A stretch of DNA of 35,829 nucleotides. Origin: an uncultured Enterobacterales bacterium. Lineage in GTDB: Bacteria > Pseudomonadota > Gammaproteobacteria > Enterobacterales > Psychrobiaceae. This document shows, piece after piece, positions 9,238 to 24,370 of the stretch. Under the pieces are notes generated by a model. The model saw nothing but the letters and a program-made list of their open reading frames with translations. It made no database searches and was not told the origin of the DNA. Made by a program: the position numbers and the translations under genes. Location: the NCBI GenBank assembly GCA_937981905.1, contig CALJMY010000200.1, forward strand, positions 1 through 35,829, given 5' to 3'. Positions within the stretch are counted from its first letter, which is position 1; each line of letters opens with the position of its first letter.

Positions 9238-11835
9238 ATGCCTCAAGATACAACACAATATCTAAAAGATTATAAAGCACCAGCTTATACCATTACCGAT
9301 ATCTCATTAGTCTTTGATTTAGACCCGACAGCAACAAAAGTAACAGCTGTATCTAAAGTGATTACAGTTGATGCTAATCAACCATTAATACTTGATGGCG
9401 ATGATATAAAACTGCTTAGTGTGTCGGTAAATAATCAAACATTAACTAGCGATCAATATCAGATTGATAATTCACAACTAGTATTGAACGACTTACCCTC
9501 TGAATTTGAACTTACTGTAGTTACACAATTAAACCCAAGTGAAAACTCAAACCTTGAGGGTTTGTATTTAGCTGATGGCGCTTTTTGCACACAGTGTGAA
9601 GCACAAGGTTTTAGACGCATTACTTACTATTTAGACCGTCCAGATGTGATGGCTGTATTCACGACAAAAATTATTGCTGATAAATCTCAATTCCCATATT
9701 TATTAAGTAATGGTAATAAAACTGATTCTGGTGATTTGGCTGACAATAAGCATTTTGCAATATGGAGTGACCCGTTTAAAAAACCTGCTTATTTATTTGC
9801 TTTAGTTGCTGGTGATTTTGATTTGTTGGCAGGAGAGTTCATTACTAAGTCTAATAAGACTGTTGCTTTAGAGTTTTTTGTTGATAAAGGTAATAAACAT
9901 AAAGCAACCTATGCATTAGAATCGCTACAACGTGCGATGAAATGGGATGAGGAGCGTTTTGGTTTAGAATATGACTTAGATATTTACATGGTCGTTGCCG
10001 TTGATTTCTTCAACATGGGCGCGATGGAAAACAAAGGGTTAAATGTCTTTAATAGTAAATTTGTACTAGCTGATAACGATAGTGCGACCGATAAAGACTT
10101 TCATGGTATAGAAGCAGTTATTGGTCATGAATATTTTCATAACTGGACCGGTAATCGTATTACTTGTCGTGATTGGTTTCAATTAAGCCTTAAAGAAGGT
10201 TTAACCGTATTTCGTGATCAGGAATTTAGTTCTGATTTAGGTTCTCGCGCCGTTAATCGTATTGACGCCGTGAAAATTATTCGCTCACATCAGTTTAGTG
10301 AAGACGCTAGCCCGATGGCACATCCAATTAGACCTCAAGCTGTTATGGAAATGAATAATTTCTATACGGTGACCGTTTATAATAAGGGCTCAGAAGTTAT
10401 TCGTATGATCCATACCTTGCTTGGTGAAGAGAAATTTCAAGCCGGTATGAAGCAATATATTCATGATTATGATGGTATGGCCGTTACTTGTGATGATTTC
10501 ATCGCCGCAATGCAGACTGGTTCAGGGTTTGACTTAACACAGTTTAAATATTGGTATGAACAATCAAGTACACCGATTGTTGCTGTTGATACAACATTCA
10601 ATGAAGCGACTAATCAAATGACATTGTCGTTCACACAAAAACATACCGGTTTAGACGGTGTTAATGCATTACAAATTCCTATGAATATAGAATTCATTGA
10701 TGTTAATGGTGATGTCTATCAAGGTGACAATGCACCTCAAACATTAGTATTAGATGAAGCTAAACAACAGTTTACGTTTGATAATATATCATCAGATGTA
10801 ACACCTGTATTTATGGGCGATTTTTCAGCACCTATTAAACTTGAATTTGCCAATTCAACAGATAAGTTAATCCATACTTTAAAATACAGCAGTAACGATT
10901 ATTCTCGTTGGGACAGCGCACAACAATTATTTACTCAAGTTATTTTAGATAATAGTACGCGTGTTGTTAATGATATGAATGTTGATGACGCATTAATCGA
11001 CGCGGTAGCATTAGTATTAAATAACGAAAACCTAGATCCTGCTTTAATCGCACTTATGTTAGAACTACCTAGCAACATGGCATTGTTTGAATTGGTAGAT
11101 TTGATTGACGTTGATGGATTGTTATCTGCTAAAACGTTGCTTAAACAACAAATCGCGATTCGTTGTGCAGTGCCATTAATGAAACGCCATCAACAATGTA
11201 TTAATCAATTACTTAATAGTGATTCAGCTCAAGCGGTCGGCTTACGCTCATTAAAACAATCACTAGGCTTATATATTTGTGCTGATATGGCGGAGAATAA
11301 AGAGATTAATGACATTATCTCTTCTCAATTTGATAACGCTAATGAAATGACTGATTCAATTAATGCTTTAACCTTAGCAGGTGTTAATCAATTAGCATGT
11401 TTTGATAATCTATCTGAGCAATTTATTAATCGTTGGACCGATAACGGACTAGTGATGGATAAATGGTTTATGGTTATCGGACAATCACCGCAAGATGATG
11501 CCATTGATAGAGTAAACAAAGCTATGAAGCAACCATGCTTTAGCTGGCAAAATCCGAATCGTGTACGTAGTTTAATTGGTGGATTTAGCCAAGGGAATAC
11601 CAAGCAATTTCATGCGATAGATGGTAGTGGTTATGAATTCTTAACCGATCAGTTAGTACGATTAAATAGTATTAATCCGCAAATAGCAGCGCGATTAATT
11701 ACGCCATTATTATCATGGAACAAATATGATGGAGTTCGTGCTCAGTTAATGAAAGAGCAACTAATTCGTTTAACTACAATTAACGACTTATCTAAAGATT
11801 TACATGAAAAATTAACATTAAGTTTAAGCAAATAA
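9238..11835 (+). CDS. pepN: Aminopeptidase N (M1 family)
   Basis: Zinc metallopeptidase that removes N-terminal amino acids from peptides in the cytoplasm during protein turnover. The 865 residues match E. coli PepN (870) and its residue numbers coincide in the active site. The exopeptidase motif GAMEN is at 261-265. Zinc ligands are His297 and His301 in HEYFHNW and Glu320 in LKEGLTVF. Order: N-terminal beta domain (1-190), catalytic domain (190-440), small beta domain (about 445-540) and helical C-terminal domain. AAGG is 7-10 bases before the ATG; an ATG at 9221 is out of frame. Only 15 bases separate it from the DUF2835 gene, so the two probably form an operon. Confidence 0.97.
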   Translation: MPQDTTQYLKDYKAPAYTITDISLVFDLDPTATKVTAVSKVITVDANQPLILDGDDIKLLSVSVNNQTLTSDQYQIDNSQLVLNDLPSEFELTVVTQLNPSENSNLEGLYLADGAFCTQCEAQGFRRITYYLDRPDVMAVFTTKIIADKSQFPYLLSNGNKTDSGDLADNKHFAIWSDPFKKPAYLFALVAGDFDLLAGEFITKSNKTVALEFFVDKGNKHKATYALESLQRAMKWDEERFGLEYDLDIYMVVAVDFFNMGAMENKGLNVFNSKFVLADNDSATDKDFHGIEAVIGHEYFHNWTGNRITCRDWFQLSLKEGLTVFRDQEFSSDLGSRAVNRIDAVKIIRSHQFSEDASPMAHPIRPQAVMEMNNFYTVTVYNKGSEVIRMIHTLLGEEKFQAGMKQYIHDYDGMAVTCDDFIAAMQTGSGFDLTQFKYWYEQSSTPIVAVDTTFNEATNQMTLSFTQKHTGLDGVNALQIPMNIEFIDVNGDVYQGDNAPQTLVLDEAKQQFTFDNISSDVTPVFMGDFSAPIKLEFANSTDKLIHTLKYSSNDYSRWDSAQQLFTQVILDNSTRVVNDMNVDDALIDAVALVLNNENLDPALIALMLELPSNMALFELVDLIDVDGLLSAKTLLKQQIAIRCAVPLMKRHQQCINQLLNSDSAQAVGLRSLKQSLGLYICADMAENKEINDIISSQFDNANEMTDSINALTLAGVNQLACFDNLSEQFINRWTDNGLVMDKWFMVIGQSPQDDAIDRVNKAMKQPCFSWQNPNRVRSLIGGFSQGNTKQFHAIDGSGYEFLTDQLVRLNSINPQIAARLITPLLSWNKYDGVRAQLMKEQLIRLTTINDLSKDLHEKLTLSLSK

Positions 11836-11850
11836 TAACTAATAAATACG

Positions 11851-12072
11851 ATGAATAAATACTATTTTAATATGGCATTGAGCTATGAAAGATTTTTACC
11901 TGTTTATCAAGGCCAGGTTAAAACATTACAAGTAACAGACGACTTTAAACGACGCATTGATATACCAGCCGAGCACTTTAGGCAGTTTCTAACACGTGAT
12001 GGATTATCTGGGCGATTTGAATTAACGGTACAAAATGATGGAAAATTTATATCGTTAAATAGAATTTATTAG
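11851..12072 (+). CDS. DUF2835 family small protein
   Basis: A 73-residue soluble protein of the DUF2835 family, found in marine gammaproteobacteria and of unknown function. Visible are the N-terminal YYFNMALSYERFLPVYQG and the middle segment IDIPAEHFRQFLTRDGLSGRF, which are typical for this family. No signal peptide and no membrane segment. It begins 15 bases after pepN and is probably cotranscribed with it. No clear terminator follows; the next 298 bases are AT-rich. Confidence 0.85.
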   Translation: MNKYYFNMALSYERFLPVYQGQVKTLQVTDDFKRRIDIPAEHFRQFLTRDGLSGRFELTVQNDGKFISLNRIY

Positions 12073-12370
12073 AGTAATTACTTTAAACGCTAGTGTGAAA
12101 ATTAATTTGTTACTACTTAATTTAATTATATTTTTAACCTATAAATAACAATAAGTTAAATTGTTGTTTATACATGAATTTAACAATGTAATAATAAGTT
12201 TAATCACAGGCTAGATTTTTTACTCTATTTTTATAAAATCTTTAGAAACCTCAATGAAAACAACGGTTGCAGGTGTTGTTTAATTGCTGTAAAAATTAAA
12301 TATAGCTGATTACGCGTGCTTAGAATAATGCGTAAATTAAAATAACAATAATCCTAAATGGAGAAGCTAC
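12073..12370 (+). promoter_or_regulatory. AT-rich upstream region of the DUF1302-DUF1329-YCF48-MMPL cluster
   Basis: 298 bases without a gene. It holds a dyad AAACAAC-N10-GTTGTTT at 12258-12281, about 90 bases before the DUF1302 start, and a weak AACAAT/ATTGTT inverted repeat near 12145-12165. A GGAGAAG ribosome site lies at 12361-12367. No convincing -35/-10 pair or terminator stands out by eye. The dyad is a plausible operator; no regulator is encoded next to it. Confidence 0.4.
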
Positions 12371-14446
12371 ATGAATATTCTTAAAAGATCCGTGTTAGCA
12401 GTAGGTATTAGTACAGCACTAAGTGCGCTAAGTGTACCAACTGCACAAGCGGTAAGTTTTAATTGGGGAGAAGTAGAAGGGAGTTTTAATTCTACATTTT
12501 CTTATGGTAGCTCTTGGCGTGTTGAAGACCGAGATCTTAAAAATCAAGTTGGTATCGTTAATAACCCAAATAACGGCCTTGACTGGACTGGATATACTGC
12601 GTTCGGTAACACTATCTATACAAGTTCAGAGCTTTTTCAAAAAGAAGGTTCATATTCAAGTAATGGTGATTTAAGTAATCTTGCATGGTCTAAAGGCGAT
12701 GCTTTTAGTCAGGTTGTTAAAGGATTACATGAATTAGACTTACGTTATGAAAACTTTGGAATATTCATTCGTGGTATGTATTTTCATGATTTTGCTTTAG
12801 ATGGCGAATTAGATTATACACGTGAACTTCAAATTGACGGTAAAGATCAAGGTATCGATTTATGTGAAGATAAAGAAGCTGATGAGCGTTTTTGTTCTGA
12901 CATTCGTTTACTTGATGCGTATGTGACTGCTGATTTTGATTTTGGTGATACACCCGTTTCATTTCGCCTTGGCCAACAAGTTATTAGCTGGGGAGAAAGT
13001 GCGTTAATTTCTCATGGTATTTCATCGACTAATGCTGTTGATATTGGTCGTTTACGCTCACCAGGTGCTGAATTAAAAGAAGCATTTATACCACAAGGTA
13101 TGGCATGGGTTTCTGCCGGTTTAACTGAAAATTTATCAGTAGAAGCTTATTATCAATATGAGTGGCAAGAAACAATTGTTCCTGCCGCGGGTACTTATTT
13201 CTCAGCAAATGATTTTGTAGCTGGCGGTGGCCAACAAAGTTTAATTCAATTAGGTTTTAATGCTAATCCTGATATTAACGGTGATTTTTTACTTTCAGAA
13301 TTAGAAAAATTAGCTGGATTATCTAAATTAGCAGGGCTAGATGATCCTGATCAAGTTGCTTCTGCTCAACTACAGCAGTTAATGTTAGCCTATTCAACTA
13401 AAGTAGCTGTTCGTAATAGTATTGATAAACCTAAAGATGATGGACAATACGGTTTAAAATTAAGTTATCAGTTTGATGATACTGAAGTGTCTTTTTATCA
13501 TCTAAATTATCATAGTCGCCGTCCTTTATTATCAGGAAATGCTTCTGACTTTTCAGCTGATGCAATCCGTGATGACTTAGGTGTATTAGCTGAGTCATTG
13601 GGTAATGTTGATTATGATACTTTAGGTAATTTACAAACATTTGCTAAAGCTAAAGTTGTTTTTCCAGAAGACATTAAATTATACGGTGTAAGTTTTAATA
13701 CAACATTGGGTGAAACATCATTTGCTGGTGAAGTGTCTCATCGTCAAGATGAACCATTACAAATTGATGATGTAGAACTACTGTTTGCAGCATTTCCTCA
13801 ACAATTAGCAAATGCAGGAATACGACCTGAATTAGACGGAATTTCTCAATTTGAAGGAAGTAGTTTTCCTTTTATTGAAGGTGATGAAATTGAAGGTGGT
13901 GATGAAATTACTGGTTTTGTATCTGTAGATACTACGCAGGTTCAATTTAATCTTGCTCACTTATTTGGTCCTACTTTAGGTGCTGATAATTTCACTTTAT
14001 TTGGTGAATTTGGTGCTATTTGGATTCATGATATGCCTGATCAAGATGTATTACGTCTAAATGGACCAGGTACTGCGCGTTCAGGTGGTAATCCTGATTT
14101 AGAATCAATCATTCAACTTACGCATAATGGCCCTGAAACTAATCCTTTCCCTACAGATTTTGCATGGGGTTATAGATTGGTTGCTAAAACTGATCACAAT
14201 AATGTTTTCGATGGTGTTAACGCTTCAGTTAAATTTGTTTTCTCGCATGATGTTGAAGGTATTACACCTGATCCTCTTTTCTTATTTGTTGAAGGCACTA
14301 AATCATTAGGTACTTCAATTGATTTTGATTATCAAAACAGATGGTCTGCAAGTGTTGGTTATAATGTATTCTGGGGCGGAAAAGGCACTATTAATACTTT
14401 GGAAGACAAAGATTTCGTTTCATTTAGCATTAAATATTCAATCTAA
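12371..14446 (+). CDS. DUF1302 outer-membrane beta-barrel protein
   Basis: Predicted outer-membrane protein, first gene of a four-gene trans-envelope cluster. The 691-residue precursor has a clear signal peptide (ALSVPTAQA, cleavage near residue 27). The rest alternates polar and aromatic residues as in beta strands and ends in DFVSFSIKYSI, like a terminal barrel strand. Family signatures include an early NWGEVEGSFNSTFSYGSSWR stretch, RLGQQVISWGESALI and RSPGAELKEAFIPQGMAWV. A helical insertion lies near 310-345 (LSKLAGLDDPDQVASAQLQ). Cys165 and Cys175 could form a disulfide. The substrate is unknown. By context it is likely the outer-membrane port of the system; porin-like uptake of a hydrophobic compound is possible. 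GGAGAAG precedes the ATG. Confidence 0.88.
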   Translation: MNILKRSVLAVGISTALSALSVPTAQAVSFNWGEVEGSFNSTFSYGSSWRVEDRDLKNQVGIVNNPNNGLDWTGYTAFGNTIYTSSELFQKEGSYSSNGDLSNLAWSKGDAFSQVVKGLHELDLRYENFGIFIRGMYFHDFALDGELDYTRELQIDGKDQGIDLCEDKEADERFCSDIRLLDAYVTADFDFGDTPVSFRLGQQVISWGESALISHGISSTNAVDIGRLRSPGAELKEAFIPQGMAWVSAGLTENLSVEAYYQYEWQETIVPAAGTYFSANDFVAGGGQQSLIQLGFNANPDINGDFLLSELEKLAGLSKLAGLDDPDQVASAQLQQLMLAYSTKVAVRNSIDKPKDDGQYGLKLSYQFDDTEVSFYHLNYHSRRPLLSGNASDFSADAIRDDLGVLAESLGNVDYDTLGNLQTFAKAKVVFPEDIKLYGVSFNTTLGETSFAGEVSHRQDEPLQIDDVELLFAAFPQQLANAGIRPELDGISQFEGSSFPFIEGDEIEGGDEITGFVSVDTTQVQFNLAHLFGPTLGADNFTLFGEFGAIWIHDMPDQDVLRLNGPGTARSGGNPDLESIIQLTHNGPETNPFPTDFAWGYRLVAKTDHNNVFDGVNASVKFVFSHDVEGITPDPLFLFVEGTKSLGTSIDFDYQNRWSASVGYNVFWGGKGTINTLEDKDFVSFSIKYSI

Positions 14447-14461
14447 CGGGTGTACAATAAT

Positions 14462-15817
14462 ATGAAAAAATTAACCCTTATATCTGCAATCGCATTGGCT
14501 TTAACTAGTCAAGCCAATGCAGCGGTTACAGCAGAAGATGCTGCAAAACTAAAGACAGAACTTACACCAGTAGGTGCAACACGTGCTGGTAACTCTGATG
14601 GTTCTATTCCTGCTTGGACAGGTGGTATCACTGCTCCTGTTGCTGGTTACGTGAAAGGTCAACATCATCCTGACCCTTTTGCATCAGATAATGTAACATT
14701 TACTATCACGGCTAAAAACCTCGATCAATATAAAGCGCATTTAACTGATGGTCAGGTAAAATTATTTGAAACATATCCTGATACTTTTAAAATGAATGTT
14801 TACCCTACACGTCGTAGTGCTTCTATGCCACAACCTGTTTATGATGCAATTGCAAACAATGCAACTAAAGCAGAATTGATTTTAGGTGGTAACGGCATTA
14901 GTAATGCAGTGTTAGGTATTCCATTTCCAATTCCTACAACTGGCTTAGAAGTTATTTGGAATCACATTACACGTTACCGTGGTGTCGATGTACAACTTAA
15001 AGCATCTCAAGCTGCACCTACGAAAAGTGGTGATTTTACGTTGCTAGAGACTAAAACTAATATCAAGTTTAAATATACTGAACCGGGAATGACGGCAGAA
15101 GAATTAAACAAAGAAAATGTGATATTTAAGTTTAAGCAAGTGACATCGCAACCTGCAAGATTAGCGGGTACAGCATTATTGGTTCATGAAACATTAAATC
15201 AAGACAATGAACCACGTAAAGCATGGACTTATAACACCGGACAACGTCGTGTTCGCCGTGCACCTAATGTAGCATTTGATACACCGGGTACAGCAACAGA
15301 TGGTTTACGTACTACAGATGATTTTGATATGTACAATGGTTCTCCGTCTCGTTATGACTGGAAACTAGTTGGTAAAAAAGAGATTTATATTCCGTATAAT
15401 TCTTATAAGCTTCATGCCAAAGGTGTTTCTTACGATGATTTGATCCAACCTGGTCACATCAATCAAGATTATGTTCGTTATGAAAAGCATCGTGTATGGC
15501 AAGTTGAAGCGACATTAAAAGAAGGGATGCGTCACACTTATAAAAAACGTGTATTTTTCATTGATGAAGATAATTGGCAAGTATCTATAGCGGATATTTA
15601 TGATAACCGTGATGAATTATATCGAGTAGCTATGGCTCATGAGTTAAACTATTATGAGTTACCAGCTTCATGGTCAACGTTAGATGTTTATTATGATTTA
15701 CAAGCACGTCGCTATCTAGCACAAGGTCTAGACAACAATAGCAGTATGTATAAATTTGATGCTAAATTATCAGATAAAAAATATACTTCTTCAGCATTAC
15801 GTCGTGCTGGTAGATAG
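14462..15817 (+). CDS. DUF1329 periplasmic protein (LolA/LolB-like family)
   Basis: Exported protein, 451 residues, with signal peptide MKKLTLISAIALALTSQANA cleaved before AV. The mature start ends in the DUF1329-typical motif GNSDGSIPAWTGG. Other conserved stretches are NVYPTRRSASMP, WNHITRYRG, GQRRVRRAPNVAFD, and KRVFFIDEDNWQ. As far as I recall, DUF1329 belongs to the LolA/LolB-like superfamily of lipoprotein and lipid carriers, so a periplasmic carrier role is inferred, not shown. The track start is a GTG at 14450; the ATG at 14462 begins a normal signal peptide and is preferred. It lies 15 bases after the DUF1302 gene and is followed by a hairpin before the YCF48 gene. Confidence 0.88.
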   Translation: MKKLTLISAIALALTSQANAAVTAEDAAKLKTELTPVGATRAGNSDGSIPAWTGGITAPVAGYVKGQHHPDPFASDNVTFTITAKNLDQYKAHLTDGQVKLFETYPDTFKMNVYPTRRSASMPQPVYDAIANNATKAELILGGNGISNAVLGIPFPIPTTGLEVIWNHITRYRGVDVQLKASQAAPTKSGDFTLLETKTNIKFKYTEPGMTAEELNKENVIFKFKQVTSQPARLAGTALLVHETLNQDNEPRKAWTYNTGQRRVRRAPNVAFDTPGTATDGLRTTDDFDMYNGSPSRYDWKLVGKKEIYIPYNSYKLHAKGVSYDDLIQPGHINQDYVRYEKHRVWQVEATLKEGMRHTYKKRVFFIDEDNWQVSIADIYDNRDELYRVAMAHELNYYELPASWSTLDVYYDLQARRYLAQGLDNNSSMYKFDAKLSDKKYTSSALRRAGR

Positions 15818-15843
15818 TTAATTCTACGTTGTTAAAAAACATT

Positions 15844-15870
15844 AAGCCGGCTCTAAGCCGGCTTTAATTT
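15844..15870 (+). terminator. Intra-cluster hairpin between DUF1329 and YCF48 genes
   Basis: A 9-bp GC-rich stem AAGCCGGCT-CTA-AGCCGGCTT followed by TAATTTTTATT, 26 bases after the DUF1329 stop and only about 20 bases before the next start codon. It looks like a full or partial terminator inside the cluster, or an mRNA-stabilising 3' hairpin for the first two genes. Confidence 0.75.
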
Positions 15871-15888
15871 TTATTGAGGAACTCAAAG

Positions 15889-16935
15889 TTGTTTAAAACA
15901 AAAACTTTATTACTTAACGTACTTCTTACGTCCCTTATCTGCTTGCCTTTACTTGCTCATGCCAATATTTTAGTTAATAAAGGTAAACAGCAGGTTAAAT
16001 CTCAAGCAGCTTTATTAGTTGATAAAGCACCTATTATGGCTTTAACTTCTACTCAACAAGGAATTGTTGCTGTTGGTAGTCATGGGCATTTATTAACGAA
16101 TAACAATAATAAAAATTGGGTACAACATATTGTACCAACTCAAACACTGCTAACAGGTGTTGCTTTTGCAAGTGAGAATGACGGGTGGGCTGTCGGTCAT
16201 GATGCAACAATTATTCATACCAGTGATGGTGGTGAATCATGGACATTACAGCAGTTTTTACCTGGATTAGATCGCCCCTTATTAGATGTCTTGTTTGTAA
16301 ATGAACAACAAGGTTTTTCTGTTGGCGCTTATGGTATGTATTTTTATACTAATGATGGCGGAAAAACATGGAACAAGCAGTTTTTAGAAACTTTGTTGTT
16401 AGAAGAGGATATAGAATATTTAGCCGAAGTACGCAGTGATAGTGAAGAAGATTATCAATTTGAAATTTCTTCAATCCTTCCTCATTTTAATAAAATTATT
16501 CAATTACAAAATAATCGTTTAATGCTTTTAGGCGAATTAGGACTCATTGCTTTTTCTAACGATAATGGCAAAACATGGTTACGTGAACATAATATTTACG
16601 AAGGGTCATTCTTTACTGCTAGGCAAATGCAATCAAAAACTATTTTAGTTGGCGGACTTAGAGGTAATGTATTTAGATCCCTTGATGATGGTAAAACATG
16701 GGTGAATATTCAACTAGGTAATAATAATAACGTTAATGATATTTATCAGTTGAAAAATGGTGATATATACCTATCGCAAAATAATGGTGTTATTTTAAAA
16801 TCGATAGATGACGGTTTGTCTTTTTTCCAAGTTAGTTTGCAAAAAGGACAAGATTTAATGGCTGTTAGAGAACTAGATAATCAGATTTGGGTTGCTGGTA
16901 GCAAAGGTCTCAATCTTTTAAAAGTAAATAAGTAG
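15889..16935 (+). CDS. YCF48/Asp-box beta-propeller protein, exported
   Basis: 348-residue exported protein with a signal peptide ending LLAHA before NILVNKG. It contains five Asp-box (BNR) repeats of the form S/TxDxGxxW/F: TSDGGESW near 109, TNDGGKTW near 153, SNDNGKTW near 222, SLDDGKTW near 262 and SIDDGLSF near 304. This fits a beta-propeller like the photosystem II assembly factor Ycf48. An acidic stretch (EEDIEYLAEVRSDSEED) separates repeats two and three. The track uses a TTG at 15874, but the TTG at 15889 has GAGGA eight bases upstream and starts the signal peptide directly. In clusters of this type it accompanies an MMPL transporter; it may act as periplasmic assembly or docking factor, an inference. 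Six bases from the MMPL gene. Confidence 0.85.
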   Translation: MFKTKTLLLNVLLTSLICLPLLAHANILVNKGKQQVKSQAALLVDKAPIMALTSTQQGIVAVGSHGHLLTNNNNKNWVQHIVPTQTLLTGVAFASENDGWAVGHDATIIHTSDGGESWTLQQFLPGLDRPLLDVLFVNEQQGFSVGAYGMYFYTNDGGKTWNKQFLETLLLEEDIEYLAEVRSDSEEDYQFEISSILPHFNKIIQLQNNRLMLLGELGLIAFSNDNGKTWLREHNIYEGSFFTARQMQSKTILVGGLRGNVFRSLDDGKTWVNIQLGNNNNVNDIYQLKNGDIYLSQNNGVILKSIDDGLSFFQVSLQKGQDLMAVRELDNQIWVAGSKGLNLLKVNK

Positions 16936-16941
16936 GCATTC

Positions 16942-19245
16942 ATGAATAAACTGATTTATTGCGTAGAACGATTTATTTTTCATTATCGAAAAACAGTCGT
17001 CGCATTTTTTACAATAATGACATTATTTTTATTATTTCAAGCATCTCAATTAAAGATGGATGCTGCTTTTACTAAAAATATTCCATTAAATCATGAGTAT
17101 ATGCAAACATATACCAAGCATGCTAAAGACTTTGGTGGTGCAAACAGTATTATGGTGGCGGTTAGAGCTAAGAATGGAGATATTTTTAGCCCTGAATTCT
17201 TTGATGGTCTTAAAAAAGTACATGATCAACTTTATTTTATTCCGGGTATTGACCGTACCACTGTTAAATCACTTTACTCTCCATCAACTCGCTTCACTGA
17301 AGTAGTCGAAGATGGCTTTGCTGGCGGTCCCGTTATTCCTGCTGACTTTGTTTCAGACAGCACTGGATTGACAATTGTCAAAAATAATGTTGAAAAGGCA
17401 GGGGTTGTTGGGCGTTTAGTTGCTAATGATTATTCGTCTGCGATGGTGTCGGCGCGTTTAATGGAATTTAATCCTAATACGGGTGAAAAACTTGATACGT
17501 TGAAGATTGCAGCGCAATTAGAAGATGAATTACGTACCCAATTAGTTAATGAAACAATGGATATTCATATCATCGGTTTCTCTAAAATGGCTGGTGATAT
17601 TGCCCAAGGTGCCAAAGGAGTTGTTCAGTTCTTCCTTATCGCTATTGCGATTACTGCTATTATGGTTTATCTATTTTCCCGTTCAATTATGCTGACATTT
17701 TTTCCATTATTATGTTCATTGATTGCTGTTGTTTGGCAAATGGGATTATTGACACTATTAGGCTTTGGGCTCGATCCAATGTCAATTTTAGTACCTTTTT
17801 TAGTTTTTGCGGTAGGTATTAGTCATAGCGTACAAGTAGTTAATGGTATAAATAAGCAAGCGCAAAAAGGAATAAGTTCAAAAGTAGCAGCGGCAGCAAC
17901 ATGTTGTGCATTATTACTTCCTGGTGGGGTTGCACTATTATCAGACACTATTGGTTTTATTACATTGTTGTCGATTGATATTGGTATTATTCGAGAACTG
18001 GCTATTTCAGCAAGCTTAGGTGTTGCTGTTATTATTTTAACGAATTTATTATTATTACCTGTCTTAATTTCTTTTTTTCATATCAAAGAAAAACCATTCC
18101 AAAATACTGCACTACTTTCAAAAATATGGATAATGCTGTCTCAATTTGCATCACGTAAAGTGGCAATTGTTGTCGTTGTTCTAACGAGTTTGTTATTCAT
18201 TGCAGGTCACTTTCAAGCTCAAAAAATTAAAGTAGGCGATCTAGATACTGGGGCTGCAGCGCTTCACCAGTGGTCACGTTATAATCAAGATACGGCATTA
18301 ATTACTGAACGCTTTTCAATAACTACCGATGTTATGTCCGTTATTGTTGAAGGCCCTTCAGATTCTTGTACTAACTATGACACATTAGAATTGATGGCTA
18401 AATTTCAATGGCGCATGGAGAATGTTGCCGGTGTTCAATCTGCGATTAGTTTGGCCAGTGTTGTTAAAAAAGTTAACGGTGGATTTAACGAGGGTAATCC
18501 TAAATGGCGTGTATTATCGAGAACACAAGCAACATTAGTGCAATCTGTTTCTCAAGTACCTACGACGACTGGACTATTGAATAGCCACTGTAATGTGATG
18601 CCTGTTTATTTGTTCTTAAAAGATCATAAAGCTGAAACTATTGAAAGAGTTATTTCTGCAGTTAAATACCAATCTTCTTTATTGAATACCGACGATGTAA
18701 CATTCAATTTAGCATCAGGTCCTGTTGGCGTTATGGCTGCTACAAATGAAGCTGTTGAAAGTGCGCAAACACCTATGATGTTTTATGTCTATGGTGCGGT
18801 TATTGCGCTTTGTCTAATTAGTTTTCGTTCAATAAGAGCAACGATTTCAGTTGTTATTCCTTTATTCGTTGTATCAACATTAGCACAAGCGTTAATGACG
18901 TTTTTAAATATAGGCCTAACGGTTTCAACATTACCAGTTATCGCACTTGGTGTTGGTATTGGTGTTGATTATGGTATTTATATTTTAGCCACAATGAATC
19001 AAGGTATTAAACAAGGGTTAACTGTTCAAGCTGCTTATTTGAGTGCATTAAGAGAACGCGGTACTGCTGTTATTTTTACCGGTGTAACACTCGCAATCGG
19101 TGTTAGTACTTGGTTCTTTTCTGACCTTAAATTCCAAATGGATATGGGAATATTATTAACCTTTATGTTTTTAGTTAACATGTTGGGCGCTATTATTGTA
19201 TTACCTGCGTTGGCAAATCTATTGTGGTTTAAGCAAGGTAAATAA
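16942..19245 (+). CDS. MMPL/RND-superfamily inner-membrane transporter
   Basis: 767-residue polytopic protein of the RND superfamily (MMPL/SSD type, like HpnN or MmpL). Layout: TM1 near 16-35, large periplasmic loop (about 40-225), TM2-6 (about 226-385), TM7 near 405-425, second periplasmic loop (about 430-605), TM8-12 (about 608-760). The second half has the classic GVGIGVDYGIYIL motif with proton-relay-type Asp676. In the first half the matching helix reads FAVGISHSVQVVNG, with Ser-His-Ser instead of Gly-Val-Asp. Such proteins usually move lipids or hydrophobic compounds across or out of the inner membrane using the proton gradient. Substrate and direction are unknown here. A terminator follows. 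Confidence 0.88.
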   Translation: MNKLIYCVERFIFHYRKTVVAFFTIMTLFLLFQASQLKMDAAFTKNIPLNHEYMQTYTKHAKDFGGANSIMVAVRAKNGDIFSPEFFDGLKKVHDQLYFIPGIDRTTVKSLYSPSTRFTEVVEDGFAGGPVIPADFVSDSTGLTIVKNNVEKAGVVGRLVANDYSSAMVSARLMEFNPNTGEKLDTLKIAAQLEDELRTQLVNETMDIHIIGFSKMAGDIAQGAKGVVQFFLIAIAITAIMVYLFSRSIMLTFFPLLCSLIAVVWQMGLLTLLGFGLDPMSILVPFLVFAVGISHSVQVVNGINKQAQKGISSKVAAAATCCALLLPGGVALLSDTIGFITLLSIDIGIIRELAISASLGVAVIILTNLLLLPVLISFFHIKEKPFQNTALLSKIWIMLSQFASRKVAIVVVVLTSLLFIAGHFQAQKIKVGDLDTGAAALHQWSRYNQDTALITERFSITTDVMSVIVEGPSDSCTNYDTLELMAKFQWRMENVAGVQSAISLASVVKKVNGGFNEGNPKWRVLSRTQATLVQSVSQVPTTTGLLNSHCNVMPVYLFLKDHKAETIERVISAVKYQSSLLNTDDVTFNLASGPVGVMAATNEAVESAQTPMMFYVYGAVIALCLISFRSIRATISVVIPLFVVSTLAQALMTFLNIGLTVSTLPVIALGVGIGVDYGIYILATMNQGIKQGLTVQAAYLSALRERGTAVIFTGVTLAIGVSTWFFSDLKFQMDMGILLTFMFLVNMLGAIIVLPALANLLWFKQGK

Positions 19246-19275: not shown

Positions 19276-19304
19276 AAGAGACCTCTAGTAGGTCTCTTTT
19301 TTTT
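19276..19304 (+). terminator. Rho-independent terminator after the MMPL gene
   Basis: AAGAGACCT-CTAGT-AGGTCTCTT stem-loop (9 bp) followed by an eight-base T run, 30 bases after the MMPL stop. Marks the end of the four-gene cluster. Confidence 0.88.
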
Positions 19305-19522: not shown

Positions 19523-22500
19523 ATGGCATTAACAGATGCAAATTCTTCTGTACTATTAGAAAATGTAGCACGTATGATAAATGATCATGTAAGTGAAAGT
19601 ATTGCGCCATTGGTTAAATCATTTTCTGATATTATTTATGGCGATATTTCTGAAGATGATATTGCTGTTAGAAGTGATAGTGATTTGTACGGCGCAGCAT
19701 TAAGTTTGTGGGGATCGTTAAATGAACGTGAACCTGGCGGACAAATCGTTAAGGTATATAATCCAATATTATCCCGCCACGGTTGGCAACCAACTAAAAC
19801 GATTATTGAGATCGTTCAGACTGATATGCCATTTCTTGTCGATTCAATTAATATGGCGCTTAAACGTCTCAATATTAACAGTCATTTATCTCTACATTAT
19901 CCGTTGAGCGTTTCTAGAGATAACGATGGCAATGTTACCTCTGTTGCTAGTCTTAAAAATAAAACATCTCAAACAGAAGACATAACTATTTTCTTATTAG
20001 AAATAGACCGTTTAGATTCTGAAGAAGTATTGGCGCATGTTCATCAAGAATTGGTAGATGTATTAAATGAAGTGAGTCTTTCAGTCCAAGACTGGAAACC
20101 TATGCGTAAAAAACTTAAAGGAATCATTGATGGTTTACCTACAGCACTCTTTCCTGGTGCTAAATGTGAATTATCTGAAACGGTAAACTTTTTACAATGG
20201 ATTTATGAGGGGAACTTTACATTATTAGGTTATCGTTCTTATTCATTGAATGGCGTAGAAGGTGATATTGAACTTGTTTCAGACCCAAGTACAAGTCTTG
20301 GTGCTATGCTTAATTCACAAGAAAGCAAACCTAAATTATTATCAAGTCTAACGTTTGGTGCGCAACGTGAAGCTACTTCTAAAAAATTAATGCTTTTAAC
20401 AAAAAGCAACACAGTTTGCCGCGTTCATCGCCCCACTAAAACTGATTATATTGGTATAAAACGTTTTGATAAATTAGGTCGTGTAATTGGTGAAGATCGC
20501 TTTATTGGTCTATTTAGCTCAAGTATTTATAACAATAGTGTTTTTCAAATCCCTTACTTAGGCGACAAATTAAGACGTATTACAGAGTCGTCTAATTACA
20601 GTAAAGGAAGTCATGATTATAAGGCGATGCAACATTTCTTGGAAACATATCCGCGTGATGAGTTAATCCAAGCAACAGAAGCTGAATTATTAGCGTCTTG
20701 TGTTTCTATTTTAAAGCTAGAAGAACGTGATGCCGTTAAATTAATTGTCCGTGAAGATAGTTTTGGACGCTTTTTCTCTTGTGTTGTTTACGTTACCAGA
20801 GAGCGTTACAACACTGCATTGCGTAAAAAAACCCAAGAAGTACTCGCACGTCACTTTGAGTCAGAAGAGGAAGTTAGTTTCACAACATTCTTCTCAGAGT
20901 CTAATTTAGCGCGTACGCATTATATTGTTCAACTCAAGCCTAACCATAAACCGGAATTTAGTGTGAAAGCCATTGAAAATGATCTAATTGAAAGTGCACG
21001 TTCATGGGAAGATAAACTAGAAAATGCATTAATAGCACATCACGGCGAATCGATCGCCAAGTCACTAAGTAATAAATATAATAAAGCATTCAGTCAAAGC
21101 TATAAGACTGATGTTTCACCGGGTATTGCTGTAGTCGATATTGCGACATTAGAAACACTAAATGATGACCATCATTTAGGAATGATTTTCTATCGTCCAC
21201 AAGAAATGAAGAAAGGTAGTAAACAAGTTCGTTTAAAATTATTTAGTTTAGATGAGCCATTACATTTATCTGATGTATTACCGATGCTAGAAAACTTCGG
21301 TTTAAGAATTGTTGGAGAACGTCCTTATGAGTTAATTCTTGAAGGCGGTCACTCTGCGTGGGTTTTAGATTTCCAAATGCTTCATACTGGCGATAATGAT
21401 TTCGATATTAATAAAGTACAAAATACATTCCAGAATGCATTTGCCCAAGTTTGGGGAAATGAATTAGAAGATGATGGTTTTAATAAATTATTATTAGCTA
21501 CTAATCTAAGCGGTCGAAAAATTACTATTTTACGTGCTTACGCAAAATATATGCGCCAAATCGGCAGTACGTTTAACCAAACTTATATCGAAGAAACGAT
21601 GGGACGCTATCCTGAAATCGCTAATTTGATTATTGATTTGTTTACACAAAAATTTGACCCAACTATTAAGTTTGCACAAAAGAAACTAGATACTATTCAA
21701 AAAGATATTATTGAACGTTTAGACCAAGTAGCAAATTTAGATGATGATCGAATTATTCGTCGTTATTTAGATATGGTGCTGGCTACTATCCGAACTAACT
21801 TCTATCAACCACATGAAGACGGTAGTGATAAATCTTATATGTCTTTTAAAGTGCGCCCAGAGATGATTCCTGAAGTGCCATTACCATTACCAAAATTTGA
21901 AGTGTTTGTGTATTCACCTCGTGTTGAAGGTGTACATTTACGTGGTGGTAAAGTAGCTCGTGGTGGATTGCGTTGGTCTGATCGACGCGAAGATTTCAGA
22001 ACCGAAGTATTAGGTTTAGTGAAAGCACAACAAGTTAAAAATACCGTTATTGTTCCAGTTGGTGCAAAGGGCGGGTTTGTTTGTAAACAAATGCCAACTA
22101 CAGGTGGTCGAGAAGCATTCTTTACAGAAGGCCAAGAATGTTACAAGATTTTCATTCGAGCATTACTAGATATCACAGACAATATTGTTGATGGCGAATT
22201 AGTGCCTCCTAAATCAGTGGTTAGACATGATGATGATGACCCTTATCTAGTAGTAGCAGCTGATAAAGGGACTGCAACATTCTCTGATATCGCTAATGGA
22301 ATCTCTGAAGAATATAACTTTTGGATGGGCGATGCATTTGCCTCAGGCGGCAGTGTTGGTTACGACCATAAGAAAATGGGTATTACTGCTCGTGGTGGTT
22401 GGGAATCTGTGAAACGTCATTTCCGTGAAATGGGCATCGATTGTCAAACGACTGATTTCACCTGTATCGCTGTTGGTGATATGGCTGGTGATGTATTTGG

Positions 22501-24370
22501 TAATGGTATGTTGTTATCTAAACATACGTGTCTACAAGTTGCATTTAATCACATGCACATATTTATTGATCCAACACCCGATGCAGCTAAAAGCTGGGTA
22601 GAGCGTGACAGATTATTTAATCTTCCAAGATCATCATGGGACGATTATGACAGCACGCTTATTTCTAAAGGCGGTGGTATTTTCTCTCGCAGCGCTAAAT
22701 CGATAATGTTAACGCCAGAAATTAAGAAAATGTTAGGCAGTAAAAAATCTAGTATGACTCCCACCGAGTTAATGCAAAGTGTGCTTAAAATGGAAGTGGA
22801 TTTATTCTGGAATGGCGGTATTGGAACTTATCTTAAAGGTTCTAGTGAAAGTCATGCTGATGTTGGCGATCGTGCTAATGATTCTCTACGTGTTAATGGT
22901 AGTGAAATGAACGCTAAAATTGTTGGTGAAGGCGGTAATTTAGGGTGTACACAATTAGGCCGTATTGAATATTGTGCTACAGGCGGTCGTATGAACACCG
23001 ATTTTATTGACAATGTTGGTGGTGTTGATTGTTCAGATAACGAAGTAAACATTAAAATTTTACTTAACAGTTTAGTTGCTAGTGGTGACTTGACCGTCAA
23101 ACAACGTAATGAGTTACTTTATTCAATGACTGATGAGGTTGGTGATATTGTAATCAATAATCATAATCGTCAAACACAGTCATTATCTATTAGTCATCAT
23201 GCTGGTGCTAATATGCTTAAAGAGCAAGTTCGTTTCATGCATGGTTTAGAAAAAGCGGGTAGCTTAGACCGTGGCCTAGAGTTCTTACCAACAGATGAAG
23301 AACTCACTGAACGTCAGTCAGTAGGTAGAGGTTTTACCCGTCCAGAGTTAGCGGTTCTATTAGCGTACGGAAAAATGGTACTAAAAGAGCAACTTGTTAT
23401 TGATGAAATTACCAATAATAGTTTCCATTCTCGATTATTATCAGCAGCTTTTCCTGTTGTTTTACAACAACGTTATGCTAAGGATATGGAAAATCATCCA
23501 CTACGTCGTGAAATTATAGCAACTCAACTAGCTAATAAGTTAGTTGATGACATGGGTTTAAACTTTGTTCATCGTATGACTGATGAAACAGGATCAACCG
23601 TTGATGAAATTGCTCATTGTTATACTATTGCGAGTGAAATATTTGGGCTTCGTCAGATTTTCGAAGATTTAGATGCACTTAATAATATTCTAGATGCTCA
23701 AACGCAAACTGAAATGTTATATGAAACTCGCCGTATTATGCGCCGTGTGACACGTTGGTTCTTACGTAATCGCGATGTATCAATGAGTATTGAAGATACT
23801 ATTAATTTCTATAAGCCTAAATTTGAAACATTAAATAGTAATATTTTTGATTTATTAGCACCTAGTGATACTAAAGATATTAAAGGTGAAATTAACGATT
23901 TAGTTGAAAAGGGTGTGCCTCAACATATTAGCGAAACGATTGGTAAAGCGTCTACTTTATTCTCAGCAATGGATATTGCACAAGTCGCTCAAGAAGTTGA
24001 TATGGATTTATGCTTAGTTGCTTCAATCTACTTTAAACTAGGTAATGAAGTTGAGTTGCATTGGTTCCTTGATCAGATATCAGCTCAGCCGGTATCTAAT
24101 CATTGGCAGGCATTGGCACGAGCTTCATTTAGAGAAGAATTAGATTGGCAACAACGTGTGTTAACAGGCACTGTGCTTAAAGGATTGAGCGGAAAAGATG
24201 TTGGTGATGATACGGTAACCAAATGGATTAAAGATAATGAAAAATTACTTAATCGTTGGGTACATTTATTGGCTGATTTCAAAGCGAGTAAAACCCATGA
24301 GTTTGCAAAGTTCTCAGTTGCACTACGTGAGTTAAATTTATTGAGTCATAATGCTACTTTAGCGTTATAA
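19523..24370 (+). CDS. gdhB: NAD-specific glutamate dehydrogenase, large (GDH-180) type
   Basis: Catabolic enzyme that oxidises glutamate to 2-oxoglutarate and ammonia with NAD+. At 1,615 residues it has the size of the roughly 180-kDa class known from Pseudomonas and Shewanella (about 1,610-1,620). The long N-terminal half has ACT-like regulatory regions. The catalytic core starts near 800 with LRGGKVARGGLRWSDRRED, followed by VPVGAKGGFVCKQ near 846 (substrate lysine region). NAD-binding motifs follow, including GNGMLLSKH and GEGGNLGCTQLGR, then a helical C-terminal region. AAAAGGAA lies eight bases before the ATG. It has its own terminator before pyrD. No accessory regulator is adjacent. 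Confidence 0.95.
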   Translation: MALTDANSSVLLENVARMINDHVSESIAPLVKSFSDIIYGDISEDDIAVRSDSDLYGAALSLWGSLNEREPGGQIVKVYNPILSRHGWQPTKTIIEIVQTDMPFLVDSINMALKRLNINSHLSLHYPLSVSRDNDGNVTSVASLKNKTSQTEDITIFLLEIDRLDSEEVLAHVHQELVDVLNEVSLSVQDWKPMRKKLKGIIDGLPTALFPGAKCELSETVNFLQWIYEGNFTLLGYRSYSLNGVEGDIELVSDPSTSLGAMLNSQESKPKLLSSLTFGAQREATSKKLMLLTKSNTVCRVHRPTKTDYIGIKRFDKLGRVIGEDRFIGLFSSSIYNNSVFQIPYLGDKLRRITESSNYSKGSHDYKAMQHFLETYPRDELIQATEAELLASCVSILKLEERDAVKLIVREDSFGRFFSCVVYVTRERYNTALRKKTQEVLARHFESEEEVSFTTFFSESNLARTHYIVQLKPNHKPEFSVKAIENDLIESARSWEDKLENALIAHHGESIAKSLSNKYNKAFSQSYKTDVSPGIAVVDIATLETLNDDHHLGMIFYRPQEMKKGSKQVRLKLFSLDEPLHLSDVLPMLENFGLRIVGERPYELILEGGHSAWVLDFQMLHTGDNDFDINKVQNTFQNAFAQVWGNELEDDGFNKLLLATNLSGRKITILRAYAKYMRQIGSTFNQTYIEETMGRYPEIANLIIDLFTQKFDPTIKFAQKKLDTIQKDIIERLDQVANLDDDRIIRRYLDMVLATIRTNFYQPHEDGSDKSYMSFKVRPEMIPEVPLPLPKFEVFVYSPRVEGVHLRGGKVARGGLRWSDRREDFRTEVLGLVKAQQVKNTVIVPVGAKGGFVCKQMPTTGGREAFFTEGQECYKIFIRALLDITDNIVDGELVPPKSVVRHDDDDPYLVVAADKGTATFSDIANGISEEYNFWMGDAFASGGSVGYDHKKMGITARGGWESVKRHFREMGIDCQTTDFTCIAVGDMAGDVFGNGMLLSKHTCLQVAFNHMHIFIDPTPDAAKSWVERDRLFNLPRSSWDDYDSTLISKGGGIFSRSAKSIMLTPEIKKMLGSKKSSMTPTELMQSVLKMEVDLFWNGGIGTYLKGSSESHADVGDRANDSLRVNGSEMNAKIVGEGGNLGCTQLGRIEYCATGGRMNTDFIDNVGGVDCSDNEVNIKILLNSLVASGDLTVKQRNELLYSMTDEVGDIVINNHNRQTQSLSISHHAGANMLKEQVRFMHGLEKAGSLDRGLEFLPTDEELTERQSVGRGFTRPELAVLLAYGKMVLKEQLVIDEITNNSFHSRLLSAAFPVVLQQRYAKDMENHPLRREIIATQLANKLVDDMGLNFVHRMTDETGSTVDEIAHCYTIASEIFGLRQIFEDLDALNNILDAQTQTEMLYETRRIMRRVTRWFLRNRDVSMSIEDTINFYKPKFETLNSNIFDLLAPSDTKDIKGEINDLVEKGVPQHISETIGKASTLFSAMDIAQVAQEVDMDLCLVASIYFKLGNEVELHWFLDQISAQPVSNHWQALARASFREELDWQQRVLTGTVLKGLSGKDVGDDTVTKWIKDNEKLLNRWVHLLADFKASKTHEFAKFSVALRELNLLSHNATLAL

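Follow-up and report, generated by a model that had tools for sequence, protein, structure and literature searches.

The four-gene system AmeABCD of Castellaniella defragrans 65Phen was named and deleted in 2018 (PMC6394551). The deletion mutant grew more poorly on limonene and tolerated limonene less well even with acetate as an extra food source, and de-energised cells contained slightly more Nile Red, although the efflux kinetics were almost those of the wild type; the authors read the system as efflux (PMC6394551). In 2019 the same four families were listed as one set in the AphS/AphR/AphT aromatic regulons of Betaproteobacteria and were proposed to cope with toxic aromatics (PMC6449761). 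Growth of Pseudomonas putida on Tween 20 requires four genes, PP_0765, PP_0766, PP_2018 and PP_2019 (PMC10866462), and co-folding published in 2024 predicted A-B, B-D and C-D contacts (PMC10866462). Moreover, deletion of a DUF1329 gene in Delftia impairs growth on phenanthrene, as cited in PMC13101534. In view of the AmeABCD, P. putida and aromatic-regulon precedents, the system described below is not new as a kind, and the initial annotation of the locus as an uncharacterised system cannot be maintained, having been preceded by the deletion in 2018, the regulon set in 2019 and the co-folding in 2024 (PMC6394551, PMC6449761, PMC10866462). Its remark that no substrate is settled is still fair.

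The window analysed here, a whole stretch of 35,829 nucleotides from a marine bacterium, carries such a set as four same-strand open reading frames in a row at 12371-19245, designated A to D. Open reading frames and Pfam matches agree on the four adjacent genes that had been annotated there. The features of the locus are as follows.

12082..12099, forward strand: PsrA-type operator-like palindrome TTTAAACGCTAGTGTGAA, one mismatch to TTYAAACNNNNGTTTRAA
12371..14446, forward strand: A, DUF1302 outer-membrane beta-barrel with signal peptide, AmeA-like, 691 aa
14450..15817, forward strand: B, DUF1329 periplasmic LolA-fold protein with signal peptide, AmeB-like, 455 aa
15844..15864, forward strand: terminator-like hairpin between B and C, 9 pairs, 6 of them GC, then a T-rich tail
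15889..16935, forward strand: C, YCF48-like beta-propeller with signal peptide, AmeC-like, ORF finder start at 15874
16942..19245, forward strand: D, MMPL/RND-superfamily transporter, probably of HAE3 type, AmeD-like, 767 aa
19276..19298, forward strand: terminator-like hairpin closing the cassette, after D

An ATG at 14462 is an alternative start for B. The ORF list begins C with the TTG at 15874, but as a ribosome-site-like GAGG stretch at 15875-15878 suits the TTG at 15889, C probably starts at the latter position. Judged by eye, the N-termini of A, B and C are typical Sec signal peptides, in keeping with the three signal peptides annotated at first. The cassette is flanked by pepN (9238-11835) and a DUF2835 gene on one side and by a large NAD-glutamate dehydrogenase gene (19523-24370) on the other; the small DUF2835 gene (73 aa, 11851-12072), located between pepN and the cassette, falls below the 100-aa threshold of the ORF listing. 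Further neighbours in the window are housekeeping genes, namely rsmF, proQ and pyrD, zapC, and genes for a tail-specific protease, a Na+/H+ antiporter, an RlmKL-type methyltransferase and an ABC-F-type protein.

Compared by family and gene order, AmeABCD and the window cassette are alike, both comprising a DUF1302 protein, a DUF1329/LolA-type protein, a COG4447 (YCF48-like) protein and an RND protein, probably of HAE3 type in the window, in the same order. However, AmeABCD is part of a monoterpene island, and monoterpenes induce it, whereas the window copy is located between the housekeeping genes pepN and gdhB, is vertically inherited in its order and has a fatty-acid operator-like site as well as an internal terminator-like hairpin. 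The AphS/AphR/AphT sets likewise form one regulated set of the same four families, with aromatic regulators there and a PsrA-type site at the window. PP_0765/PP_0766 and PP_2018/PP_2019 of P. putida resemble the window set in combining DUF1302, DUF1329, a periplasmic protein and an RND protein, yet AB and CD occupy two loci in P. putida and one block in the window.

DUF1302 is the only Pfam match of A (E 1.5e-156); the FadL family (PF03349) was not matched, and sequence comparison of A with solved structures yielded no direct match. An AlphaFold2 model from 54 sequences (mean pLDDT 89.1, pTM 0.87) predicts a large beta-barrel, for which Foldseek returned OprD-type porins and the alginate channel AlgE as the best PDB matches (E 9e-13 to about 1e-9). 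As the TM-scores are near 0.5, we describe A as a porin-like barrel and not as a member of the OprD-type or AlgE families. This predicted model (pLDDT 89) is consistent with the earlier assignment of the DUF1302 protein as an outer-membrane barrel. A would share its proposed substrate with the FadL channel, but it belongs to a different family, is longer and has a predicted fold closest to OprD-type porins and AlgE. B matches DUF1329 (E 7.5e-156) and in addition LolA_like (1.3e-9) in Pfam, and its AlphaFold2 model (48 sequences, pLDDT 88.6) superimposes on LolA3 of Porphyromonas gingivalis (9tp6) and on the solved DUF1329 protein 4z48 with target-normalised TM-scores of 0.85 and 0.78, respectively. 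Judged by this model, B is a LolA-fold protein, and the membership of DUF1329 in the LolA/LolB-like superfamily, given in the initial annotation, is corroborated by the predicted structure. Besides, weak matches to the DUF1329 model were observed in another protein of the window's genome (L002, G000:C47:21660-21878), which is presumably LolA-like, and at G111:C169, where the match adjoins a different MMPL gene and may represent a separate LolA-like/MMPL pair.

C matches PSII_BNR/YCF48 in Pfam (3e-20) and Ycf48 structures by sequence (2xbg, E 1.2e-18), so that it was aptly named a YCF48-type propeller. With 76 bits against a cut-off of 326 bits, it stays far under the threshold of the true Ycf48 model, which makes it a homologue of Ycf48/HCF136 and not an orthologue. 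D matches Pfam MMPL (E 3.3e-19), above the cut-off in two stretches that represent its two halves. A crude hydropathy scan gave 11 peaks, at least one of them wide enough for two helices; the 12 transmembrane helices annotated for D are thereby plausible, but such a scan does not demonstrate them. Against TIGR00921 (HAE3), D scores 181.7 bits (E 1.7e-53) with a curated cut-off of 351.9, and it aligns over its full length with the D proteins of plasmid-borne cassettes. Among 20 aligned D proteins, Asp-Tyr of the TM10 motif GVDY (D676-Y677) and Ser-His of the TM4 motif (S294-H295) are invariant, from which we infer that the proton relay of D is probably retained but altered. D resembles MmpL3, MmpL4, MmpL5 and HpnN of the same superfamily, from which it differs by the Ser-His at the TM4 motif position. 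The likeness to HpnN and the MmpL lipid exporters, the LolA fold of B and the wide presence of the cassette as a single-copy chromosomal locus would all suit a system that delivers an endogenous lipid or a hydrophobic surface product to the outer membrane, similar to hopanoid export by HpnN and tuned to fatty-acid supply. HpnN itself works without AmeA/B/C-type partners (PMC6394551). A membrane-fusion protein or TolC-type channel, as in HAE1 systems of the AcrAB-TolC type, was found neither among the cassette genes nor among the scanned neighbours.

The four genes were then traced in a sample of 119 genomes of the order. Any of the four is present in 50 genomes, 48 of which carry all four; the incomplete sets, lacking A (G038) or C (G111), come from draft assemblies in hundreds of contigs. 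Pairwise co-occurrence of A, B, C and D gave Fisher p values of 1e-31 to 1e-34, uncorrected for kinship, and the four genes are all-or-none in the order beyond chance. The block pepN-A-B-C-D-gdhB recurs in most families of the order, as a vertically inherited, chromosomal, single-copy locus. The order A-B-C-D is also found far beyond close relatives, in Desulfobacterota, Nitrospirota, Verrucomicrobiota (Opitutaceae), Acidobacteriota, some Alphaproteobacteria and Pseudomonas. This all-or-none co-occurrence and the collinearity across several phyla argue for the single dedicated system spanning inner and outer membranes that had been proposed at the outset, and we consider it almost certain that A to D form one joint envelope system.

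AB and CD are at separate loci in several Pseudomonas and a few other genomes. D was present in 16/16 genomes searched, including those with AB-only loci, where it is encoded elsewhere, and the CD pair still follows pepN in several Pseudomonas. The neighbour families of the Pseudomonas-type loci are mainly pepN, rhomboid and DUF2797, not lipid genes. A sister relation between the pepN-linked D proteins of Pseudomonas and the clade of the window was expected, but the D tree places them apart: the 22 rows of the window's order form one clade (support 90; root unknown) that adjoins Desulfobacterota and other phyla, while the Pseudomonas-type D, 44-48% identical to the window D, form a clade of their own. 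Without such a relation, the shared pepN neighbourhood in Pseudomonas is a matter of synteny only. On plasmids, the four genes lie together inside catabolic clusters with dioxygenases, acyl-CoA ligases and dehydrogenases, and thiolases, also in the rearranged orders B-A-D-C, B-A-C-D and C-D-IS-A-B. The vertical inheritance of pepN-A-B-C-D-gdhB could in principle mean that four unrelated genes without a joint function are held together by shared ancestry of the pepN-gdhB region. We regard this as extremely improbable, and in effect already refuted, given that the same four genes occur in other orders on plasmids and in several phyla, and that both halves are kept where the cassette is split into AB and CD. 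A second, divergent copy was observed within one genome (L043, G090:C1:3801001-3821000), with A and B on one strand and C and D divergently on the other.

The hairpin after D (19276-19298) agrees with the strong terminator annotated as closing the cassette, but an equally strong hairpin inside the cassette had been overlooked. As the B-C hairpin (RNA fold z = -3.5) matches the terminal one in strength, the cassette is not simply one transcript with one closing terminator. A strong hairpin with a T-rich tail occupies the B-C gap in 32 of the 56 loci of the order, compared with 0.4 expected from dinucleotide shuffles, while two control regions, the C/D junction and the inside of B, gave 0 in both cases. 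Outside the order, it was detected at 9/31 loci (0.2 expected). The stems differ in sequence between genera, indicating that the position of the hairpin is conserved and not its sequence. Partial termination at this point may lead to unequal expression, with A and B made in excess of C and D, an excess that would suit a small number of pumps served by a port and a shuttle. DUF1329, YCF48 and MMPL proteins are all expressed in a benzene-degrading consortium, and DUF1329 leads by far, with 158 versus 65 and 60 in the printed table (PMC13101534); these counts agree in direction with an A/B excess, bearing in mind that data of this kind underestimate membrane proteins.

In Shewanella and many other gammaproteobacteria, the regulator of fatty-acid degradation is PsrA (PMC3223726, PMC5343134), and its footprint at the P. 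putida rpoS promoter is TTCAAACN4GTTTGAA (PMC13104628). Upstream of A, the palindrome TTYAAAC-N4-GTTTRAA is perfect at 4/56 loci of the order and has one mismatch at a further 12/56, so that 16/56 loci carry it with at most one mismatch, versus 0.5 expected from shuffles; about 1% of shuffled upstreams would be expected to contain a match of this quality within 400 bases. The window copy departs from the palindrome at one position. At the corresponding place two sister genomes show two mismatches, and in two other sister genomes no operator-like site within two mismatches was observed upstream of A. Perfect copies were listed in six genomes of the order and the genes beside the non-cassette copies were scanned. 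Such copies are rare (0-6 per genome), and one lies at the cassette in G006 and in G072. Half of the non-cassette perfect sites (9/18) adjoin FadB, acyl-CoA dehydrogenase, ETF-QO or psrA-fadE genes, another adjoins a FadH/OYE-type flavoenzyme that no NCBIfam model names, and the TetR gene beside one perfect site passes the NCBIfam cut-off for PsrA. The window's genome itself encodes a PsrA that exceeds the curated cut-off, and a site with two mismatches lies immediately ahead of this psrA. In Pseudomonas-type loci, PsrA-like sites were found upstream of A in 5/18 cases, two of them exact CAAAC-N4-GTTTG. FadR-like half sites and another generic palindrome showed no excess upstream of A. Taken together, the sites suggest that the cassette may be controlled by PsrA itself.

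The only other site with at most one mismatch in the window, TTTAAACACTAGTTTAAT at 1620-1637, precedes a 4HBT thioesterase-family gene (1663-2073) by 26 bases, and this gene, going by the site, is likely a further member of the fatty-acid regulon. Two of the 18 non-cassette perfect palindromes precede the gene for the large subunit of glutamate synthase, in two members of the window's genus (L202 in G041; L205 in G000, the window's genome), and perhaps represent an extension of the regulon. Apart from this, a second motif, ATGATGTAAT(C/T)AT, precedes the DUF1302 gene in L039-L042, L092-L118 and others, and is present with at most one mismatch at 20/56 loci of the order (0 expected from shuffles); it was not found in the window or its sister genomes.

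FadE is encoded in 50/50 cassette genomes, and the cassette occurs in 0/38 genomes without FadE (uncorrected for kinship). Genome size alone does not explain this pattern, since family f8, with genomes of only 2.3-2.5 Mb, has both the cassette and FadE, and several FadE-less genomes of more than 3 Mb have neither. Among genomes with FadE, FadL is missing from 14/50 with the cassette and from 2/31 without it (p 0.02, uncorrected for kinship); absence was called at E 0.01, as the too strict threshold of E 1e-15 would add four genomes to the FadL-less list. Family f8 alone accounts for 6 of the 14 FadL-less cassette genomes. Several families that degrade fatty acids without FadL thus carry the cassette, and most cassette genomes also have FadL. 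The absence of a FadL match in the window's genome means little, because this assembly has a completeness of 82.7% and FadL is encoded in every sister genome sampled. One cassette genome contains a FadL-family match in two pieces, one of them with an internal stop codon (G072:C1:3004538-3005593), apparently a fadL gene in decay.

Same-strand genes for a FadD-like acyl-CoA ligase, a FadB-like protein and a thiolase-like protein come directly after the cassette in three Desulfuromonadales-type loci (L115-L117). A thiolase/enoyl-CoA hydratase signal across all phyla was considered as well and set aside, as it came mostly from these three loci. A recurrent lipid-synthesis gene was not found beside the cassette, the recurrent partners being catabolic. 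This speaks against the export of an endogenous lipid, as do the association of the cassette with fatty-acid degradation and the Tween 20 growth phenotype given for P. putida in PMC10866462, and we consider lipid export unlikely.

The window cassette thus appears to be a chromosomal, vertically inherited AmeABCD-type four-part envelope transporter under the fatty-acid-degradation regulon. The suggestion that such systems be tested on long-chain lipids was a good lead, and the new evidence points to fatty acids in this lineage, where acyl compounds are probably the main substrate. We surmise that long-chain fatty acids or ester-derived acyl chains would lift a PsrA-type repressor off the operator upstream of A. 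A would pass the acyl compound through the outer membrane and B, with the presumed hydrophobic cavity of its LolA fold, would ferry it across the periplasm; the propeller C, itself attached to D, would dock B onto D. D, as a putatively proton-coupled RND protein with the D676/Y677 relay, would then handle the acyl compound at the inner membrane, from where it would proceed to FadD and beta-oxidation. The substrate, the inward direction and the role of C are those that we infer for this lineage, and we would give the full account, proton-driven uptake of long-chain acyl compounds included, an even chance of being correct. The fatty-acid regulon, the degraders that lack FadL, the adjoining fad genes and the Tween 20 phenotype speak for uptake.

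Efflux is a serious rival to this uptake reading. Toxic hydrophobic compounds such as free fatty acids, terpenes or aromatics would be removed from the inner membrane or periplasm and leave through A, and the cassette would be placed in catabolic regulons since the food itself is toxic. All RND/MMPL relatives of D with a known direction (HpnN, MmpL3, MmpL4 and MmpL5) export, and the AmeABCD tolerance data, i.e. the poor growth on limonene, the lower tolerance with acetate and the slightly higher Nile Red content of de-energised cells (PMC6394551), favour the same direction, as does the role in coping with toxic aromatics proposed for the four families (PMC6449761). The Nile Red efflux kinetics, on the other hand, hardly differed between mutant and wild type (PMC6394551), a LolA-fold carrier takes the place of the usual membrane-fusion protein and TolC-type channel, and FadL-less fatty-acid degraders carrying the cassette are easier to explain by uptake. 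We therefore hold efflux to be a substantial possibility, though not the probable one. Since many members belong to aromatic or other catabolic clusters, specificity for fatty acids does not hold for the entire family.

New in this study are the all-or-none pattern in the order, the PsrA-type operator-like sites, the FadE/FadL pattern, the fad genes after the cassette and the conserved B-C hairpin. The cassette is widespread, being present in 50/119 sampled genomes of the order, in several phyla and on many catabolic plasmids, yet DUF1302 and DUF1329 remain the only names for two of its four families. The tie to the fatty-acid regulon and the FadL-less degraders turn an unspecified hydrophobic substrate into one that is directly testable by growth and uptake. 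If uptake is true, fatty acids would have an envelope route besides FadL, and import would involve an RND protein, which would be surprising. We tentatively raise the further idea, which we think rather doubtful, that many marine gammaproteobacteria and bacteria beyond them may possess a second uptake route for long-chain fatty acids that spans the entire envelope, is independent of FadL and relies on an RND protein for import or as an aid to it, and that in the FadL-less degrader families this may be the only outer-membrane route. The regulatory, phylogenetic and transcript-structure findings bear on what DUF1302/DUF1329/MMPL systems move and in which direction.
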